NCBI GenBank assembly: GCA_949742895.1
Contig: CATJRT010000091.1
Span: 1 to 5,952 of the forward strand
Direction of reading: 5' to 3'
Source: an uncultured Eubacteriales bacterium
GTDB lineage: Bacteria > Bacillota_A > Clostridia > Oscillospirales > Oscillospiraceae
DNA length: 5,952 nt
Of the stretch, positions 1-5,952 are shown one piece after another. The translations under genes and the position numbers were made by a program. A model generated the notes under the pieces. That model saw nothing but the letters and a program-made list of their open reading frames with translations, did not search any database and was not told the DNA's origin. How positions within the stretch are numbered: the first letter of the stretch is position 1; every line of letters starts with the position of its first letter.

Positions 1-744
1 CTTGCGCAGCTCGGACACGCCCAGGACGATGGCCTCATAGCCCATGTCCTCCACGATCTTCTTGACTTTGGGGTATCCCTCGGGAACCAGCACGTAGTCG
101 TTGACCCACACGCAGTTGGCGGCGTACATCTCATCTTCGGGGATCTCCACTTTGTTGAAGTCCTTGAACAGCGGGTTATCAATAAATTCACCGGCCACCA
201 GCAGGTTGTTGTTCTCCAGGTAATTGACGCCGGACTTCAGGTGGAACATCTCCTTCAGCTCCACCAGAATGGGGTTATGGCCGTACTTTTTCAGGATGGC
301 GGCCATGTTCTCAGCACCGGCACGGGTGGTGCGCTTGGAGATGCCGATGTAGAAGTCGTTGCCAACCATCATGATGTCGCCGGGTTCGCAGGTTCCCTCG
401 GTGATCTGCTCCACGTTGTCGTAGAACTTTTCAAGGGTGGGGCGCAGGTCGGGCAGACGAACCTCGCCATTGCGGGTCATGGCGCCGGGGTTGCTGATGA
501 TGGCCACCTTATCGGTAAGCAGAGCGTTGTCCTCAATGAAGATGGAGCTGGCAAAGTCCTCACAGGGAGCCAAGACGGTTACGTCCAGACCGGCCTTGGC
601 CAGGGCAGCCACATACTGTTCGTGCTGTACGATGGCCTTCTGGTAGTTGGGGCGGCCCTCCAGATAGACGCTGCTCAGCAGACCCTCGGAGATGGAATGA
701 CCTGGGATGCGGACGATGGCGTTTTTAAATTTCTTAGCGGACAT
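1..744 (-). CDS. DDAH-family guanidino hydrolase (dimethylarginine dimethylaminohydrolase-like), 3' end cut by window edge
   Basis: The 248 visible residues align along their whole length with bacterial dimethylarginine dimethylaminohydrolase as I recall it from Pseudomonas aeruginosa (about 254 residues). DDAH hydrolyses methylated arginine to citrulline and a methylamine in the cytoplasm through a covalent Cys intermediate. Visible family features are IFIED at 68-72 (Glu71, Asp72), Arg91 in the NPGAMTR segment, EPGDIMMVG at 120-128 with active-site Glu120, GISKRT at 134-139 with Arg138, and HLKS at 168-171 with catalytic His168. The frame stays open to base 1, and the nucleophilic Cys expected about 6-8 residues further on is outside the window. 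The start at 744 follows AAAAGAGG (754-761) at 9 nt. One oddity: the Asp that contacts the substrate alpha-amino group in DDAH, just before the FxED motif, is Ser66 here, while the carboxylate-binding arginines remain. It is the last visible gene of the minus-strand operon. Family membership is firm, but methylarginine as the substrate is doubtful. Confidence 0.9.
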   Translation of the reverse strand, partial: MSAKKFKNAIVRIPGHSISEGLLSSVYLEGRPNYQKAIVQHEQYVAALAKAGLDVTVLAPCEDFASSIFIEDNALLTDKVAIISNPGAMTRNGEVRLPDLRPTLEKFYDNVEQITEGTCEPGDIMMVGNDFYIGISKRTTRAGAENMAAILKKYGHNPILVELKEMFHLKSGVNYLENNNLLVAGEFIDNPLFKDFNKVEIPEDEMYAANCVWVNDYVLVPEGYPKVKKIVEDMGYEAIVLGVSELRK

Positions 745-792
745 TGCATATTACCTCTTTTCCTTTAGTGTGAAGCGGATGGGTACTTTATG

Positions 793-817
793 CTAAAACT
801 AAGGGGCTTAGTTTTAG
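793..817. repeat. Perfect 11-bp inverted repeat with 3-nt loop between carrier and hydrolase genes
   Basis: CTAAAACTAAG (793-803) and CTTAGTTTTAG (807-817) are exact reverse complements separated by GGG. In the operon transcript this forms an 11-bp hairpin in the 110-nt gap between the carrier stop and the hydrolase start. No T-run follows the stem on the minus strand, so a standard intrinsic terminator is unlikely. An RNA processing, stability or attenuation element, or an operator, is possible. Only the symmetry is seen directly. Confidence 0.7.
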
Positions 818-854
818 GTCGGGATTGCCTGTGGCTCTGCCTGAGCGCCTGGGG

Positions 855-2384
855 TCAGACCATAACCCCCACAATTAGGAGCCCGCAGCAGGCGGCAAAC
901 AGAATCAGCATGAACTTCCAGTTTGTTTTGACCCATTGACCGTAGTCGATGTGGGCCACCTGGGTGCAGGTCATGACTGCGATGGAGGTGGGCATAATCA
1001 TCTTCACCATGCCCAGGCCCATGAGGTAGACCAGGATCATCACGTCCGGTTTTACCCCGGCGAACACCGCCATAGGAGCCATGATGGACATGGTGGCGGC
1101 AGCCAGTCCGGAGGAACTTGGAATTAGGATAGCGATCAGGAAATAGAATACCAGACAGACCAGGACAAAGACAATGGGAGGCAGGGTGCTCAGTGTGCGC
1201 TCACCAAAATTCAGGATGGTGGGGGTGATAGAGCCGGTGGTCATGATCACCTGGATGCCCCTGGACAGGGGCACGATGAAGGCCGTGGACACCAGCCCTG
1301 CCGCGCCCCGGATGGTGACATCGATGATCTTGTCCACGCTATAGTGCATGACAAAACCGACGATAAAGGTAGCGACCAGCACCAGGATGCTTAGCTCGTT
1401 GAAGTACCACTGGCCAAAGGGGGTGATGCTCTTACCCAGGATCATACCCAGCACGGGGATGTTGGTTACCCAGGCGGCGAAATCTTCGAAAAAAGTCCAG
1501 CTCTCGTTCAGGGAACTCCATGGAATCAGGGAGATAATCATGATCGCGAAGGTGGCACAGAACACGATGATGGCCCGGGTCTGCTCCTTGCTCATGGTCA
1601 GGTTTTCATCATCGGCCACCGGGAATTCCTTGAGGTCATCTTCCCTTCTGAAATACTGGGGGGACTTTGTGGGGTCCCTTTTGATTTTATCCGCATAGCG
1701 GCAGATGTAGATGGAAATCAGGCTGAGAATGACAACGAATACGATGGTGCGGAGCAAAATGCCTTCGCCGGGGCCGATTCCTGCGATGCCCGCCGCAATA
1801 CCCGTGGCGAAGGGGTTGACCACGGAGGCCAGACAGCCGCCTTGGGTGCCCAGCACCACAATCATCACGGTGACCATGGTGTCCAGCCCCAGCGCCAGCA
1901 CCACTGGCATGAGCATGAGCAGGTAGACAAAGCCCTCTTCGTAAGCGCCGTAAATGGTACCCAGGGCACCCATAACAAAGACCAGAATCCAAATCAGCTT
2001 GTGGTAGCTGTCTTTGCTCTTGTTGGCAATCCGTTTCAGCAAAAGTTTGATGGAACCGGACTCGTTCATAATCTCCAGGAAGCTGCCGAACAGCATAATG
2101 CAGAGGGAGATAGAGATGGCACCGGAGATCTGGGCGTTACCGCACATACCGATAATAGGGGCCATGATGATATCCCACAGGCCCTGTGGGTTGGCTTCCG
2201 CCTGGGTATAGGTACCGGCGATAGCGTTTCCGCTTTCGTCGATTTGATACTGGCCGCCGGGAATGATCCACGTCAGAACTGCAACAGCCACCATGATCAG
2301 GAAGATAATAACATATGCATTAGGAGCTTTAAACTGTTTCTTCGCTGGGGCCTGGCCGGCCTGTTCCTTATTCGGTTTTGCCAT
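855..2384 (-). CDS. YfcC-family (DcuC superfamily) membrane carrier
   Basis: This 509-residue protein of the inner membrane belongs to the YfcC branch of the C4-dicarboxylate anaerobic carrier superfamily, whose members are often annotated as basic amino acid antiporters. It has a lysine-rich cytoplasmic N-terminus (1-20), a first membrane helix at about 23-41, and roughly a dozen hydrophobic segments in all, split by a polar loop at about 231-270. Family-like motifs are YEEGFVYLLMLMP at 148-160, VNPFATGIAAG at 189-199 and IPSSSGLAAATM at 421-432. The length is normal for the family. The start at 2384 has GGAGGA (2391-2396) 6 nt upstream. It begins 59 bp after the carbamoyltransferase and is followed 110 bp later by the DDAH-like gene, so a role importing the hydrolase substrate or exchanging it for the amine product is a reasonable inference from context. 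The family assignment is well supported; the transported compound is not known. Confidence 0.9.
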   Translation of the reverse strand: MAKPNKEQAGQAPAKKQFKAPNAYVIIFLIMVAVAVLTWIIPGGQYQIDESGNAIAGTYTQAEANPQGLWDIIMAPIIGMCGNAQISGAISISLCIMLFGSFLEIMNESGSIKLLLKRIANKSKDSYHKLIWILVFVMGALGTIYGAYEEGFVYLLMLMPVVLALGLDTMVTVMIVVLGTQGGCLASVVNPFATGIAAGIAGIGPGEGILLRTIVFVVILSLISIYICRYADKIKRDPTKSPQYFRREDDLKEFPVADDENLTMSKEQTRAIIVFCATFAIMIISLIPWSSLNESWTFFEDFAAWVTNIPVLGMILGKSITPFGQWYFNELSILVLVATFIVGFVMHYSVDKIIDVTIRGAAGLVSTAFIVPLSRGIQVIMTTGSITPTILNFGERTLSTLPPIVFVLVCLVFYFLIAILIPSSSGLAAATMSIMAPMAVFAGVKPDVMILVYLMGLGMVKMIMPTSIAVMTCTQVAHIDYGQWVKTNWKFMLILFAACCGLLIVGVMV

Positions 2385-2443
2385 TTTGAATCCTCCTTTT
2401 TCTCTGTCGGCATACTAAAGCTCCGGGTTTGCCTTGTCCTAAA

Positions 2444-3382
2444 TTAAAGCGCGATAGCGGCCAGGATGCCTTTGATGGAGTGCATACGGTTTTCCCCCTG
2501 ATCCCAGACCATGCTCTGCTCACATTCCATCACTTCGTCCGTCACGTCAATGCCGCGGTAGGCGGGCAGGCAGTGCATGAAAATGGCGTCGCTCTTGGCC
2601 TTCTTCAACGCCTCCATGGTCACCTGGTAGGGATGGAACGCCTTTTTCAGCTTCTCTACCTCCTCGGGGGCTTGTCCCATACTGTAATGACTCATGCCGT
2701 AGACGATATCCGCATCCTTCAGGGCTTCGTCATAGTCGGAGGTGAATACGATTTTTGCACCAGAGACCTTCGCACGCGCCATGGCCTCAGCCAGCACTGC
2801 GGCATCAGGCTCCAGACCATCAGGGCGGGCGACATACATATCAATGCCCAGGGTGGCACAGAAGATCATAGTGGTGTAGCACACGTTGTACAGGTTGCCC
2901 GCGTAGCACAGCTTCAGCCCCTTGTAGCCGCCCTTTTTTTCTTTGATGGTCATCATATCCGCGATGCCCTGGGTGGGGTGGGCGGTGGTGGTCAGGCCAT
3001 TGATCACCGGGTGATCCATCCACTGGGCGTATTCCTCCACGATCTCATGGCCGAAGGTGCGGATGAACAGGCCATCATAGTAGCGGTCAAACATACGAGC
3101 GGTATCCTTCAAAGGTTCGCCCCTGCCGCTCTGCAGTTCATCGGGACGCAGATAGACGGTGGTGATGCCCAGGTCGGCGGCAGCCCGCTGGAACGCGTTC
3201 CTGGTTCGGGTCGAGTTTTTCTCGAACAGCGCGGCCCACACCTGGCCTTTCAGGTACTCGTGGGGCTCCCGGGCCACCCACTTGTGCTTTAGCTCGATGG
3301 AAAGGTCGGTGATAAACTCCATCTCCTCCCGGTTCATATCCTTAAACGCTAAAAAGTCTTTGCCTCTGAAATTTTTCCTCAT
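2444..3382 (-). CDS. Ornithine carbamoyltransferase-like enzyme with altered amino acid site
   Basis: The 312-residue product is a full-length member of the aspartate/ornithine carbamoyltransferase family and resembles Bacillus-type ArgF from end to end. Carbamoyl phosphate motifs are intact: STRTR at 57-61, KDTAR at 92-96, RTFGHE at 108-113, HPTQ at 135-138, HCLP at 270-273 and ENR at 297-299. In ordinary enzymes the reaction is carbamoyl phosphate plus ornithine to citrulline, run backwards in catabolic operons. Several amino-acid-side positions are unusual. The Asp-x-x-x-Ser-Met-Gly motif reads M-S-H-Y-S-M-G at 230-236, so the Asp that holds the ornithine alpha-amino group is Met230. The G-D-x-N-N segment reads G-N-L-Y-N at 162-166, keeping only one Asn. 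The cytoplasmic enzyme is first in the operon, with the carrier 59 bp downstream. It lacks the PTC WYG signature and the long YgeW insertions I remember. Fold and chemistry are confident; ornithine as the acceptor is not. Confidence 0.92.
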   Translation of the reverse strand: MRKNFRGKDFLAFKDMNREEMEFITDLSIELKHKWVAREPHEYLKGQVWAALFEKNSTRTRNAFQRAAADLGITTVYLRPDELQSGRGEPLKDTARMFDRYYDGLFIRTFGHEIVEEYAQWMDHPVINGLTTTAHPTQGIADMMTIKEKKGGYKGLKLCYAGNLYNVCYTTMIFCATLGIDMYVARPDGLEPDAAVLAEAMARAKVSGAKIVFTSDYDEALKDADIVYGMSHYSMGQAPEEVEKLKKAFHPYQVTMEALKKAKSDAIFMHCLPAYRGIDVTDEVMECEQSMVWDQGENRMHSIKGILAAIAL

Positions 3383-3390
3383 AAGAATGA

Positions 3391-3395
3391 CCTCC
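3391..3395 (-). promoter_or_regulatory. Ribosome binding site fixing the carbamoyltransferase start
   Basis: GGAGG lies 8 nt before the ATG at 3382. The same frame is open upstream to 3484, which would add 34 residues, but that extension runs through the predicted -10 box and promoter repeats, and the family N-terminus (MRKNFRGKDFL) begins exactly at 3382. Confidence 0.88.
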
Positions 3396-3439
3396 ACTGA
3401 TTTTGGTGAATTTATGGTAATTTTGCCTGCTGCAGTTTT

Positions 3440-3468
3440 ATTATAGGAGTTTCCTGCCTGCTTGGACA
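3440..3468 (-). promoter_or_regulatory. Predicted operon promoter with good -10 and weak -35
   Basis: On the minus strand TATAAT (3440-3445) is a consensus -10 box. Seventeen nt upstream is TGTCCA (3463-3468), a poor match to TTGACA. Transcription would start near 3433 and give a leader of about 50 nt. A strong -10 with a weak -35 that overlaps the GGACA/TGTAC repeats suggests activation by a bound regulator, plausibly the divergent PucR-type protein. The boxes are seen; the regulation is inferred. Confidence 0.6.
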
Positions 3469-3514
3469 TTGTACTAATGTACATTTTAAATCAATATTCA
3501 TTGTACATTTGTCC
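3464..3514. promoter_or_regulatory. Candidate operator: clustered TGTAC repeats inside a GGACA/TGTCC inverted repeat
   Basis: Within 51 bp GTAC occurs three times (3471-3474, 3479-3482, 3503-3506). TGTAC (3470-3474) and GTACA (3479-3483) form an inverted pair around TAAT. TGTACATTT occurs twice as a direct repeat (3478-3486 and 3502-3510), 24 bp apart. The cluster is bounded by GGACA (3464-3468) and its complement TGTCC (3510-3514). It sits between the two divergent promoters and overlaps the -35 of the enzyme operon. The best inference is a binding site for the adjacent PucR-family regulator, but no binding motif for this particular protein is known to me. Confidence 0.6.
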
Positions 3515-3524
3515 GATTTGCCCC

Positions 3525-3553
3525 TTGATTTTTTGCCGCATTATAGATATAAT
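3525..3553 (+). promoter_or_regulatory. Sigma-70-type promoter of the PucR-family regulator
   Basis: TTGATT (3525-3530) and TATAAT (3548-3553) are separated by exactly 17 nt, a near-consensus housekeeping promoter. The expected start is near 3560, leaving a leader of about 75 nt before the GTG codon. Compared with the opposed enzyme promoter it has the better -35 box, fitting constitutive regulator expression. Confidence 0.75.
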
Positions 3554-3622
3554 TTCTTTGAAATATCTCCGCATTATTGGCGTAATAACAAAATAGCGAG
3601 TTGATCAAAATGCTGTCGGATC

Positions 3623-3627
3623 GGAGG
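3623..3627 (+). promoter_or_regulatory. Ribosome binding site supporting a GTG start for the regulator
   Basis: GGAGG lies 8 nt before GTG at 3636. The next in-frame ATG (3657) would remove the ITVREAM segment, which is the typical beginning of the PucR N-terminal domain, and has no comparable ribosome binding site. Confidence 0.85.
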
Positions 3628-3635
3628 AAAACCAC

Positions 3636-5267
3636 GTGATTACAGTGAGAGAAGCCATGGACACCGAGGGACTAAAGGATGCTACTGTCTTGTGCGGAGC
3701 AGGCGGGCTGGACCGGCAGATGTTCGGCGTCACCATTATGGACATACCTGATATCGCAAATTGGCTGTCTGGCGGGGAACTTGTCATTTCTGGAATTTTG
3801 CTCCCGAAGCATTTTTCCCATGCAATGATAGATGACTTCCTGGAAAAAAATGTGGCCGGAATCGTCACCAAGGAAAAATTCACGACGTCCATTGATCCGG
3901 AGCTCCTGACATACTGTGACCAGCTGAATTTTCCCATCATCCTGTCCAATCCGTCCCTCAATTGGGGTCAGATCATGAGCCCCATCACTACCTATATTGT
4001 TCGCAAGCCCTATCTGCTGATTGAGGAATCCCAGCGGTTTCACAATGCCCTGATGAAGTCCCTGATCAAGGGTGCTGGCCTTTCGGAAATGTGCGGGCTG
4101 ATGCACGAGATGGCGGGAGAAACCCTGTCCGTTATGGACAACGACCTGCACCTACTGGGCATGAGCCAGAATTTTGATTGGAAAAGCTACACCCGGGAGA
4201 TCAGTGGCGGAAAAATCCAATATGCCGATATTCGCTTCCACTTCCCTGATGAGAACAGCGTTTATGTCTATCAGTACCAGAACCTTCTGCTGCGCTCCAT
4301 TGGCAGCAAGATCCTTCTGTATCCCGTAACGCTGAACCGCATCAAATACGGGTATATCGCTTTGCTTGTGCCCATGGATACCAAGGAGCTGTCCCCCTTC
4401 CGCACCGTAAAGATCCAGCAGCTCGCCCTGTTTGTGGCATTGAACTCCACGCGGAAAAGCGAGATCAGCAATGCGCTGCGCCGCTTCAATGGCCTGATTA
4501 TGGATCAGCTCTTGGCCAGCAAGAATTTGAACCAGCGGCAGATCGAAGACCTTCTGGCACCGCTGGGCAAAAAAATACACCGCAAATACTATGCGGTGCA
4601 GCTGGTGTACGACGAGCTCTCCACGTTGGATTCCTTCCTGCTTCGCAATAACCGCATCAGCCAGTTCCACGTCCAGATGGAGAAGGGCATCCCAATTTTT
4701 GACCACCTGCTGTTGTTCGAAAAAAACAACGCGCAGATCATCCTGATTCCGGATCCTTGTGACGACCTGGATGATCTGGTGTTCAGAATCCGGGAGTATT
4801 TTATCAGTTCCACCAGCATACAGAACGTATACATTGGCATCAGCGACGCTGTCCACCTCTGCAATATTGAGACGGCTTTCCGCCAGAGCTCCTACGCTGC
4901 AAATTATCTGCTCTCCACAAAAAGCCGGAAAATCTGCTTCTACTACAAGGACTTGGGCATTTTGAAGTTCTTTATGGACAGCTGGGGCAGTCTGGATGAG
5001 ACCTTCCTGCGGCACACCTATGACCAATATATCTCCCCTCTCAAGGCGTATGACCGGGAGCACAACACCAGTCTGCTGGATACCCTGGAATTGTACTTAC
5101 ACAACAACTGTTCTAAAACCGAGACGGAAAAGCAGCTTTTTATCCACAAAAACACCTTGCGGGCCAGACTTGAGACCATCGGGAAGATTCTGAACTGCGA
5201 CCTTTCTAAAACCGAGGATCTGTTCAACATCCAGCTGGCCATAAAGATCAAGTTTTTCATTGACTGA
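3636..5267 (+). CDS. PucR/CdaR-family transcriptional regulator
   Basis: This 543-residue cytoplasmic regulator shows the usual three-part PucR layout. Residues about 5-125 are the purine-catabolism regulator N-terminal domain (opening ITVREAM, with DIPDIANWLSGGELVIS at 36-52). Residues about 130-275 form a GAF-like sensing region. Residues about 300-430 form the CdaR-type GGDEF-like domain, with YIGISDAVHLCNIETAF at 399-415. Residues about 481-540 are the C-terminal HTH_30 domain, with the DNA-reading segment around SKTETEKQLFIHKNTLRARL (493-512). Members control purine, sugar-acid, amino acid or polyamine catabolism, usually of neighbouring genes, in response to a small molecule. Here the gene diverges from the carbamoyltransferase operon across 253 bp that hold the repeat cluster at 3464-3514, so it is probably that operon's activator. 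The ligand is unknown, and the name does not by itself imply purines. No convincing terminator follows the gene. Confidence 0.93.
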   Translation: MITVREAMDTEGLKDATVLCGAGGLDRQMFGVTIMDIPDIANWLSGGELVISGILLPKHFSHAMIDDFLEKNVAGIVTKEKFTTSIDPELLTYCDQLNFPIILSNPSLNWGQIMSPITTYIVRKPYLLIEESQRFHNALMKSLIKGAGLSEMCGLMHEMAGETLSVMDNDLHLLGMSQNFDWKSYTREISGGKIQYADIRFHFPDENSVYVYQYQNLLLRSIGSKILLYPVTLNRIKYGYIALLVPMDTKELSPFRTVKIQQLALFVALNSTRKSEISNALRRFNGLIMDQLLASKNLNQRQIEDLLAPLGKKIHRKYYAVQLVYDELSTLDSFLLRNNRISQFHVQMEKGIPIFDHLLLFEKNNAQIILIPDPCDDLDDLVFRIREYFISSTSIQNVYIGISDAVHLCNIETAFRQSSYAANYLLSTKSRKICFYYKDLGILKFFMDSWGSLDETFLRHTYDQYISPLKAYDREHNTSLLDTLELYLHNNCSKTETEKQLFIHKNTLRARLETIGKILNCDLSKTEDLFNIQLAIKIKFFID

Positions 5268-5417
5268 GTTATACGTGAAGTGGGTTGTGTGTGCTCACGG
5301 TCCAAAATTATATTTCTGGACAGAATCGTTTTGCGTAAAATCAGGGCAATCTATTAGGGTTAATGACCAACTTACCGTTCAAGCCGGTATTGTATCCGTA
5401 GCACCTAAGATGGACTT
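5268..5417. other. Intergenic stretch without an assignable gene
   Basis: I see no intact coding region, RNA gene or clear terminator in these 150 bp after the regulator. A weak GTCCA/TGGAC pair (5300-5304 and 5317-5321) with a 12-nt loop lacks a following T-run. The segment leads into decayed mobile-element sequence and may itself be remnant DNA. Confidence 0.5.
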
Positions 5418-5576
5418 TTAGAAGTGCTGTCTTAGAAAAATACCCTGCTCCATTGCCCGTGCCAGGTTGTTTAGGGCCTTTTCGGCTTCTGTCTACTCCG
5501 CTTTCAGCCCTTCGATATAACCCATGTCCTCAGACTCTTTCCGATAGTACGTTGCGGAGGTACGTTTTCTGTTCCG
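5418..5576 (-). pseudogene. Decayed fragment resembling the C-terminal coiled coil of a large serine recombinase
   Basis: Read on the minus strand, 5576 down to 5420 gives a peptide with YYRKESEDMGYIEGLKAE, a TAG stop at 5493-5495, then TEAEKALNNLARAMEQGIF, and a stop at 5418-5420. The pattern of a charged helix followed by E-K-A-L-x-N-L-x-R-A-x-E-x-G-I-F resembles the coiled-coil region after the zinc ribbon of large serine recombinases in Clostridia elements. After GIF a one-base shift gives S-K-T-A-L, closer to the family's usual continuation, so both a nonsense change and a frameshift seem present. No catalytic domain is nearby. An unrelated helical fragment remains possible. Confidence 0.45.
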
Positions 5577-5617
5577 GCCTGCGTCCGGCAGGGGCCCCTT
5601 TTAGGGGTAAGCGTCAA

Positions 5618-5651
5618 ATAAAAAGCCGCGGTGCCGAAGTGGCATCGCGGC
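5618..5651 (-). terminator. Rho-independent terminator, minus strand
   Basis: GCCGCG (5625-5630) pairs with CGCGGC (5646-5651), and TGCC (5632-5635) with GGCA (5641-5644), separated by one mismatch and closed by a 5-nt loop. On the minus strand the stem is followed by TTTTTAT (5618-5624). It lies 10 nt after the stop at 5662-5664, so it marks the end of the gene whose tail is read in that frame. Confidence 0.88.
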
Positions 5652-5661
5652 AAAATTTAGG

Positions 5662-5727
5662 TCAAGGCACTCGGCAGTTCTTCGGAGTGTCCTGTATCAG
5701 TTTGAACACCGACACGATGTGCCCTGG
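5662..5727 (-). pseudogene. C-terminal tail of an unidentified gene, joined out of frame to the DUF3991 fragment
   Basis: This minus-strand frame reads PGHIVSVFKLIQDTPKNCRVP and then stops at 5662-5664, 10 nt before a strong terminator. The position suggests the true 3' end of a gene, but upstream the frame does not continue into the DUF3991-like reading frame. The peptide is too short for me to name a family. Confidence 0.4.
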
Positions 5728-5952
5728 CTGTTGGTGCTGCGCTTGTGGGCGTGGCGGGACGTGCCGTCCTTGTCCATGCCCACGAACACGGCGTTGTGGT
5801 ACTTCTGATCTTCATAGACCAGCCCCAGCCGGACGAAGGTGGTGAGTACCTCCCGATCCAGATGGCGGTGCTTCAGCCGGTAAGCGAATACCCGCCTGTT
5901 GGTGTCGTTGGCGGGCGGCAACTCGAAGGGCTTTTTCACTTTTCCCCGGGGC
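5697..5952 (-). pseudogene. Truncated DUF3991 (toprim-associated) gene fragment; 5' part beyond window edge
   Basis: The frame is open from the right edge and matches the DUF3991 domain found N-terminal to a toprim domain in proteins of conjugative elements and plasmids of Firmicutes. Recognisable blocks are FELPPAN, RRVFAYRLKHRHLDREV, FVRLGLVYED, HNAVFVGMDKDG and RHAHKRSTNSQG. In intact proteins the sequence goes on for a few hundred residues into the toprim domain. Here it stops 8 residues after NSQG (stop at 5697-5699), so it is broken. The GTG at 5939 is probably internal, because conserved-looking sequence continues upstream. The intact family probably acts in DNA processing during element transfer or replication; this copy is unlikely to function. 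Confidence 0.8.

Follow-up and report, generated by a model that had tools for sequence, protein, structure and literature searches.

The window analysed here, a 5,952-nt stretch of contig CATJRT010000091.1 (assembly GCA_949742895.1) from an uncultured Eubacteriales bacterium, carries most of an operon that encodes a dimethylarginine dimethylaminohydrolase (DDAH)-like amidinohydrolase, a YfcC-type carrier and an ornithine carbamoyltransferase (OTC)-like protein. Judged from sequence, with a probability of about 0.5, this operon would serve an energy pathway of the arginine deiminase (ADI) kind, whose substrate keeps the guanidino end and the carboxylate of arginine and has no free alpha-amino group. 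The most likely substrate would be a 2-oxo or 2-hydroxy acid (2-oxoarginine or argininic acid), with N-methylated forms for the DDAH branch present in the window. The features on which this proposal depends are the following.

1..744, minus strand: DDAH-like amidinohydrolase of the Ser66 clade, for the putative amidinohydrolase step, cut by the window edge at base 1 (248 of about 260 amino acids).

547..549, minus strand: Ser66 codon, by alignment in place of the alpha-amino-binding Asp of DDAH.

855..2384, minus strand: YfcC/DcuC-type transporter of 509 amino acids (PF03606; NF008611 196.4 bits, below the cut-off of 500).

2444..3382, minus strand: OTC-like carbamoyltransferase of 312 amino acids, starting at 3382 with GGAGG upstream (a start at 3484 was judged to be an upstream extension).

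2693..2695, minus strand: Met230 codon, by alignment in place of the Asp of DxxxSMG.

In human DDAH1, the contacts to the alpha-amino group come from the side chain of Asp73 and the backbone of Leu30 and Val268, according to an excerpt of PMC10958460, which agrees with an earlier sequence-only reading of this DNA that assigned the role to the aspartate preceding the FxED motif. The same reading had noticed Ser66 at this position, and the alignments bear it out. Ser66 aligns without gaps with an Asp in both reference enzymes, within PDSVFVED of Pseudomonas DDAH and PDCVFVED of human DDAH1. Among the best 120 of 483 matches listed (P0001-P0120), P0001-P0012 are 76-96% identical to the window protein; the clade sample consists of the window protein and P0001-P0011, P0012 being excluded for its different end although it also has Ser. 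The position is Ser in 12/12 clade rows vs Asp in all 108 other listed rows (P0013-P0120), so the replacement, as far as sequence can tell, is no chance event. Glu71, Asp72, Arg91, Arg138 and His168 are kept in all 12 clade rows and all 108 others, Phe69 in 11 of the 12 (one gap), and Glu120 in the whole clade (outside it, 95 Glu and 13 Asp). On this evidence, the guanidine and carboxylate side of the clade is the same as in ordinary DDAHs. Two further residues are changed in the clade, each in 11/12 rows since the window stops at residue 248: Ile/Leu/Val has become Thr249 and Asp has become Asn250. The loop after the lid is about two residues longer. Counting back from the catalytic Cys matches Thr249 to Val268 of DDAH1, and the same count from Cys249 gives the differences from Pseudomonas aeruginosa DDAH (1h70) and human DDAH1 as Asp60 to Ser, Ile243 to Thr and Asp244 to Asn, beside the longer lid-side loop. 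The catalytic Cys itself lies beyond the window edge, and full-length relatives carry it in GGLSC. A fold model of the relative P0001 has DDAH as its nearest predicted fold. The dimethylargininase model NF045658 (cut-off 450 bits) is reached neither by the window protein (271.5, partial gene) nor by its relatives in locus L096 (301.8) and P0001 (282.8); the cut-off is strict, as the Asp-type P0013 (393) and P0062 (412.1) also stay below it.

The transferase has undergone the corresponding change. That D231 of Escherichia coli OTC touches the alpha-amino group specifically, as the sequence-only reading had it, is what we take to be the case. The residues D231, S235, M236, N167 and K53 of this enzyme bind ornithine, as given in a portion of PMC4581275. 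Met230 of the window protein, which the sequence-only reading had also pointed out, lies within VYGMSHYSMG, and Asp stands there in the 12 OTC-type rows used for comparison (mostly YTDxWxSMG). In the best 120 of 7,720 matches listed, among which P0121 is the window's own cluster, this position is Met in 89, Asn in 28, Val in 2, Ala in 1 and Asp in none. Lys55, Asn166 and His270 are found in all 120 and Met235 in 119. The Ser of SMG is replaced in a minority (Ala 10, Val 1, Cys 1), where a second OTC substrate contact is lost; P0180, P0191, P0200 and others read GMTHYAMGH. In a tree of 56 chosen transferase rows, a single change between Asp and non-Asp is needed, on a branch with support 100/99. 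The STRTR and HCLP motifs of the window transferase are retained, and they stand, like Arg91, Arg138, Glu120 and His168 of the DDAH-like protein, just where they had been described. Unlike OTC, the protein has Met for Asp231, Gly for the preceding Thr, Tyr before SMG, and an Asp81. It scores 335.4 bits with the OTC model TIGR00658 (cut-off 280.85) and reads MxxxSMG in place of the ornithine-binding DxxxSMG. The putrescine carbamoyltransferase (PTC) model TIGR04384 gives 255.7 bits vs 500, and the acetylornithine carbamoyltransferase and YgeW models give 135.8 vs 288 (NF003384) and 68.3 vs 500 (TIGR03316); a purine-type (YgeW) transferase was set aside on these scores. Fold models and structure comparisons agree with the predicted folds only. 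Because the defining binding residue, DxxxSMG Asp in one and Asp60/Asp73 in the other, is absent from each, the two window proteins are not filed, on sequence grounds, as OTC or DDAH proper.

The related loci contain another amidinohydrolase without this contact. A genome scan gave 58 loci, of which L001-L012 have transferases 67-87% identical to that of the window and L013-L058 47% or less. With L059 (an Enterococcus mundtii plasmid record) and L077-L079 and L094-L098 from genome searches, 21 related loci were scored at E 1e-15 and 46 control loci with other carbamoyltransferases (L013-L058) at E 1e-20. L079 ends inside the kinase gene and was set aside for some counts, leaving 20 scorable loci. 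All 20 encode in the operon a 284-amino-acid amidinohydrolase, here called DEIM (the L004 gene carries an in-frame stop), which belongs to the DDAH/ADI superfamily (PF19420 124.8 bits, PF02274 92.8) as distant kin of the window DDAH (19% identity in a profile alignment). DDAH Asp60 faces Val77 of DEIM without gaps, both in an hhalign comparison of the alignments (98.7% probability) and in HMMER alignments to Pseudomonas DDAH and ArgZ. At this column the best 120 of 782 DEIM matches listed, together with L012, have Val in 120 rows and Ile in one, whereas the PDB rows for DDAH and ArgZ have Asp; ADI presumably has Asn. The arginines aligned with the two carboxylate-holding arginines of DDAH are conserved. 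By alignment, both amidinohydrolase types of the operon are without an acid at the amino site. Public names of DEIM look misleading: P0260, P0279 and P0308 are called '2-nitroimidazole nitrohydrolase' or 'nitrate reductase', and elsewhere 'dimethylarginine dimethylaminohydrolase family protein' is used.

The remaining genes narrow the substrate. The YfcC carrier is encoded in 20/20 scorable related loci and a D-2-hydroxyacid dehydrogenase (PF02826/PF00389) in 18/20 (incomplete in L001 and split in two in L094), a PucR match adjoins all 21 loci (some partial), and carbamate kinase is found in 12/21 (two partial). The 46 control loci (3 to 21 kb, some of them too short to be informative) have no DEIM, dehydrogenase, YfcC, PucR or DDAH, and a single carbamate kinase, in L027. 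In the dehydrogenase, R241, E270 and H290 (L012 numbering) are invariant in 13 aligned copies of the 18, and these Arg, Glu and His we take to be the catalytic residues. The active-site Glu was rejected as evidence for a cationic substrate because a glyoxylate reductase likewise carries an acidic residue at this position. The presence of a 2-hydroxyacid enzyme beside two amidinohydrolases and a transferase that lack the amine contact points towards an arginine analogue whose alpha carbon bears oxygen. Of the substrates that the sequence-only reading had offered, the dehydrogenase in 18/20 loci makes the deaminated (2-oxo/2-hydroxy) analogue the best match, and the N-alpha-acylated one fits less well. 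An acylated substrate (N-alpha-acetyl-ADMA or acetylarginine), as used in the superfamily branch of succinylarginine dihydrolase (AstB), appears very unlikely: the 46 flanking ORFs scanned (chosen from 92 found) include no recurrent acylase family, the transferase falls under the acetylornithine and YgeW cut-offs given above, and the dehydrogenase would be left unexplained. An analogue with a bare alpha carbon (5-guanidinovalerate), or a shorter one (4-guanidinobutyrate), would suit the Val and Met at the amino site; there would be no obvious step for the dehydrogenase, and the two carboxylate arginines kept suggest the length of arginine, which makes such substrates distinctly improbable. For D-arginine or D-methylarginine, in which the amino group and the carboxylate trade places, the inversion would also shift the amine away from the Asp. 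We give this idea very little weight, as the carboxylate residues are unchanged, no D-amino-acid enzyme family recurs among the same 46 flanking ORFs and the dehydrogenase again has no explanation.

For a 2-oxo or 2-hydroxy acid, the pathway would run as follows. The YfcC-type carrier would import the substrate and is probably a substrate/product exchanger. DEIM would then remove ammonia, or the Ser66 DDAH a methylamine, to give 5-ureido-2-oxo- or 5-ureido-2-hydroxypentanoate; the catalytic residues are seen in these proteins, the DDAH Cys only in relatives. The simplest division of labour may give DEIM the plain and DDAH the methylated guanidino group, since on its guanidine side the Ser66 clade matches ordinary DDAHs. 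The Asp-less transferase, with its fold and catalytic motifs in place, would phosphorolyse the ureido acid to carbamoyl phosphate and 5-amino-2-oxo- or 5-amino-2-hydroxypentanoate. Carbamate kinase would yield ATP and the D-2-hydroxyacid dehydrogenase would interconvert the 2-oxo and 2-hydroxy acids, the genes of both lying at related loci, outside the window. As a merit of the 2-oxo acid, 5-amino-2-oxopentanoate should cyclise and could pull the unfavourable phosphorolysis forward. Both 2-oxoarginine and argininic acid are listed among uremic solutes in an excerpt of PMC8745165. Animals make alpha-keto-dimethylguanidinovalerates from methylarginines via AGXT2, N-alpha-acetyl forms being a minor route, according to part of PMC6769906. 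It is a tentative and rather unlikely further possibility that the Ser66 DDAH is an alpha-keto-dimethylguanidinovalerate (DMGV/ADGV) dimethylaminohydrolase, and that the bacteria live on the keto acids formed from dimethylarginine by animal AGXT2 and gain ATP via an Asp-less transcarbamylase for 5-amino-2-oxo- or 5-amino-2-hydroxypentanoate.

The link between the DDAH of the window and the full pathway is given by L096. On one strand, this locus encodes the transferase, carbamate kinase, a Ser66 DDAH, YfcC, the dehydrogenase and DEIM, with a divergent PucR gene in two pieces. Its Ser66 DDAH has 260 amino acids, 87% identity to that of the window and the C-terminal sequence GGLSCISLRF, and its transferase has zero tree distance to P0189, a Vagococcus elongatus protein. 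By gene content, L096 places the DDAH type of the window and DEIM in one pathway. The locus came from a transferase search with P0226 in the order of G006, where 10 of 395 genomes matched at E 1e-105. Shared contig sizes (18825 for P0003 and P0132, 10867 for P0011 and P0211) hint at two more contigs with a Ser66 DDAH and the transferase.

Several observations weigh against a substrate without an alpha-amino group; the proposal is weakest in that the transferase has a conserved Asp81 and that the window cuts the operon short. Asp81 lies near the 80's loop; it is present in 24/24 Met-type rows, and in 12 OTCs Asp does not rank among the three most frequent residues at this position. In PTCase and ATCase, residues 83/84 from the adjoining subunit share in the active site and in substrate binding, according to a portion of PMC4581275, and Asp81 could, from its position in the sequence, bind an amino group in place of the lost contact. 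Glu82 was dropped as a new acid, since some OTC rows have Asp or Glu there. The Ser234 of SMG is retained in 108 of the 120 listed transferases. The backbone carbonyls of DDAH also hold the amine (PMC10958460, excerpt). The window breaks off within the DDAH gene and has no dehydrogenase or carbamate kinase gene within its 5,952 nt, the dehydrogenase is missing from L006 and L059, and L096 is the only locus seen that joins a Ser66 DDAH to dehydrogenase, kinase and DEIM. A further point comes from an Asn-type sister clade, of which two loci were seen, an intact one (L076) and one with disrupted frames (L093), both with another carrier and without the dehydrogenase.

8624-16386 of L076: Asn-type sister operon with a GNTWHSMG transferase, DEIM, carbamate kinase, PucR and a sodium symporter.

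The carrier of L076 is APC-like by reading, no dehydrogenase match was found at this locus, and its DEIM has Tyr at the column facing DDAH Asp60. Because the Asn-type loci are without the dehydrogenase, loss of the transferase Asp and presence of the dehydrogenase are not strictly tied.

These points bear on whether the substrates are the ordinary ones (methylarginine, arginine, citrulline), the amino contact being re-arranged: in the transferase it would come from Asp81 of the adjacent subunit, in the amidinohydrolases from backbone carbonyls. The invariance of Asp81, the score above the OTC cut-off and the DDAH1 backbone contacts favour such a re-arrangement. Against it, the same side-chain contact would have to be missing in three enzymes, DEIM carries Val or Ile at the amino-site column and the dehydrogenase in 18/20 loci would be left unexplained; we regard ordinary substrates as unlikely. 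The claim of a substrate with no free alpha-amino group, made from the two substitutions, is partly supported: it is strengthened by DEIM without the contact and by the Thr249, Asn250 and loop changes of the Ser66 clade, and it is narrowed towards a 2-oxo or 2-hydroxy acid. It is not proven, as Asp81 could replace the contact.

The other features of the window lie beyond the transferase start.

3383..3635, no strand: divergent intergenic region that separates the operon from its probable regulator, from sequence and gene layout.

3636..5267, plus strand: divergently transcribed PucR-type regulator (PF07905 and PF13556).

5697-5951, minus strand: DUF3991 protein fragment beyond the regulator, by domain match.

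Neither an Rfam scan at the gathering threshold nor a tRNA scan of the window gave a match. DUF3991 is, we assume, a domain of plasmid and conjugative-element genes, and the fragment found here may mean that the operon lies within or close to a mobile element; a blastn search of the plasmid collection with bases 5400-5952 gave no match. An operon of this kind occupies 8248-14186 of L059; this Enterococcus mundtii plasmid is typed as conjugative and carries recombinase genes a few kilobases from the operon. Dehydrogenase and kinase genes were looked for in this operon and not found. Some related operons have a second membrane protein, which is a sodium/solute symporter in Klebsiella (L002 15608-17047, L003 15553-16992) and a relative of a Gate-domain (PF07670) protein elsewhere (L012 15282-16592, L005, L077, L078, L094, L098). 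Two single flanking genes would fit hydroxy-acid chemistry, a PanE-type reductase gene at L094 (8119-9039) and, as a guess, a lactate-racemase-family gene at L097 (13559-15025; Lar_N, one match among the flanking ORFs).

The operon looks rare because few genomes matched the window transferase at E 1e-100: 6/105 in the family of G007, and 1/295 and 1/397 elsewhere, which are the seed genomes themselves. In the order and the family to which L004 belongs, a search at E 1e-60 for a second Ser66 DDAH context matched 1/394 and 2/200 genomes, at 49-50% identity. A megablast comparison of the Klebsiella operon with the 5,426 genomes of the E. coli collection gave no match.

The arginine deiminase (arc) pathway consists of ADI, OTC, carbamate kinase and ArcD. 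The proposed pathway would resemble it in guanidino hydrolysis, phosphorolysis of a ureido acid, ATP from carbamoyl phosphate and a dedicated carrier, and differs in the Ser66 DDAH or Val-type DEIM, in a transferase without the DxxxSMG Asp and in the added dehydrogenase and PucR regulator. Like the pathway of agmatine deiminase and PTC, it would be a deiminase route for an arginine derivative minus one group; unlike that pathway, the transferase stays below the PTC model and the carboxylate-binding residues are kept. No description of this operon was found in the literature searched, which covered titles and abstract openings among the matches listed and lay outside closed-access papers, and the combined gene names gave no match. 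Both 2-oxoarginine and DMGV have been followed in human plasma, and a fall of plasma 2-oxoarginine was linked to the engraftment of two gut species, a purely statistical link according to the authors (PMC11340759, excerpt). The operon would supply a concrete gene set for testing links between plasma 2-oxoarginine and gut species. If the proposal is true, the operon encodes a catabolic route that has gone unrecognised and whose transcarbamylase acts on a new substrate; Klebsiella, Enterococcus, Streptococcus, Lactobacillus and clostridia would then have proteins of that route under the names 'ornithine carbamoyltransferase' or 'dimethylarginine dimethylaminohydrolase family'.

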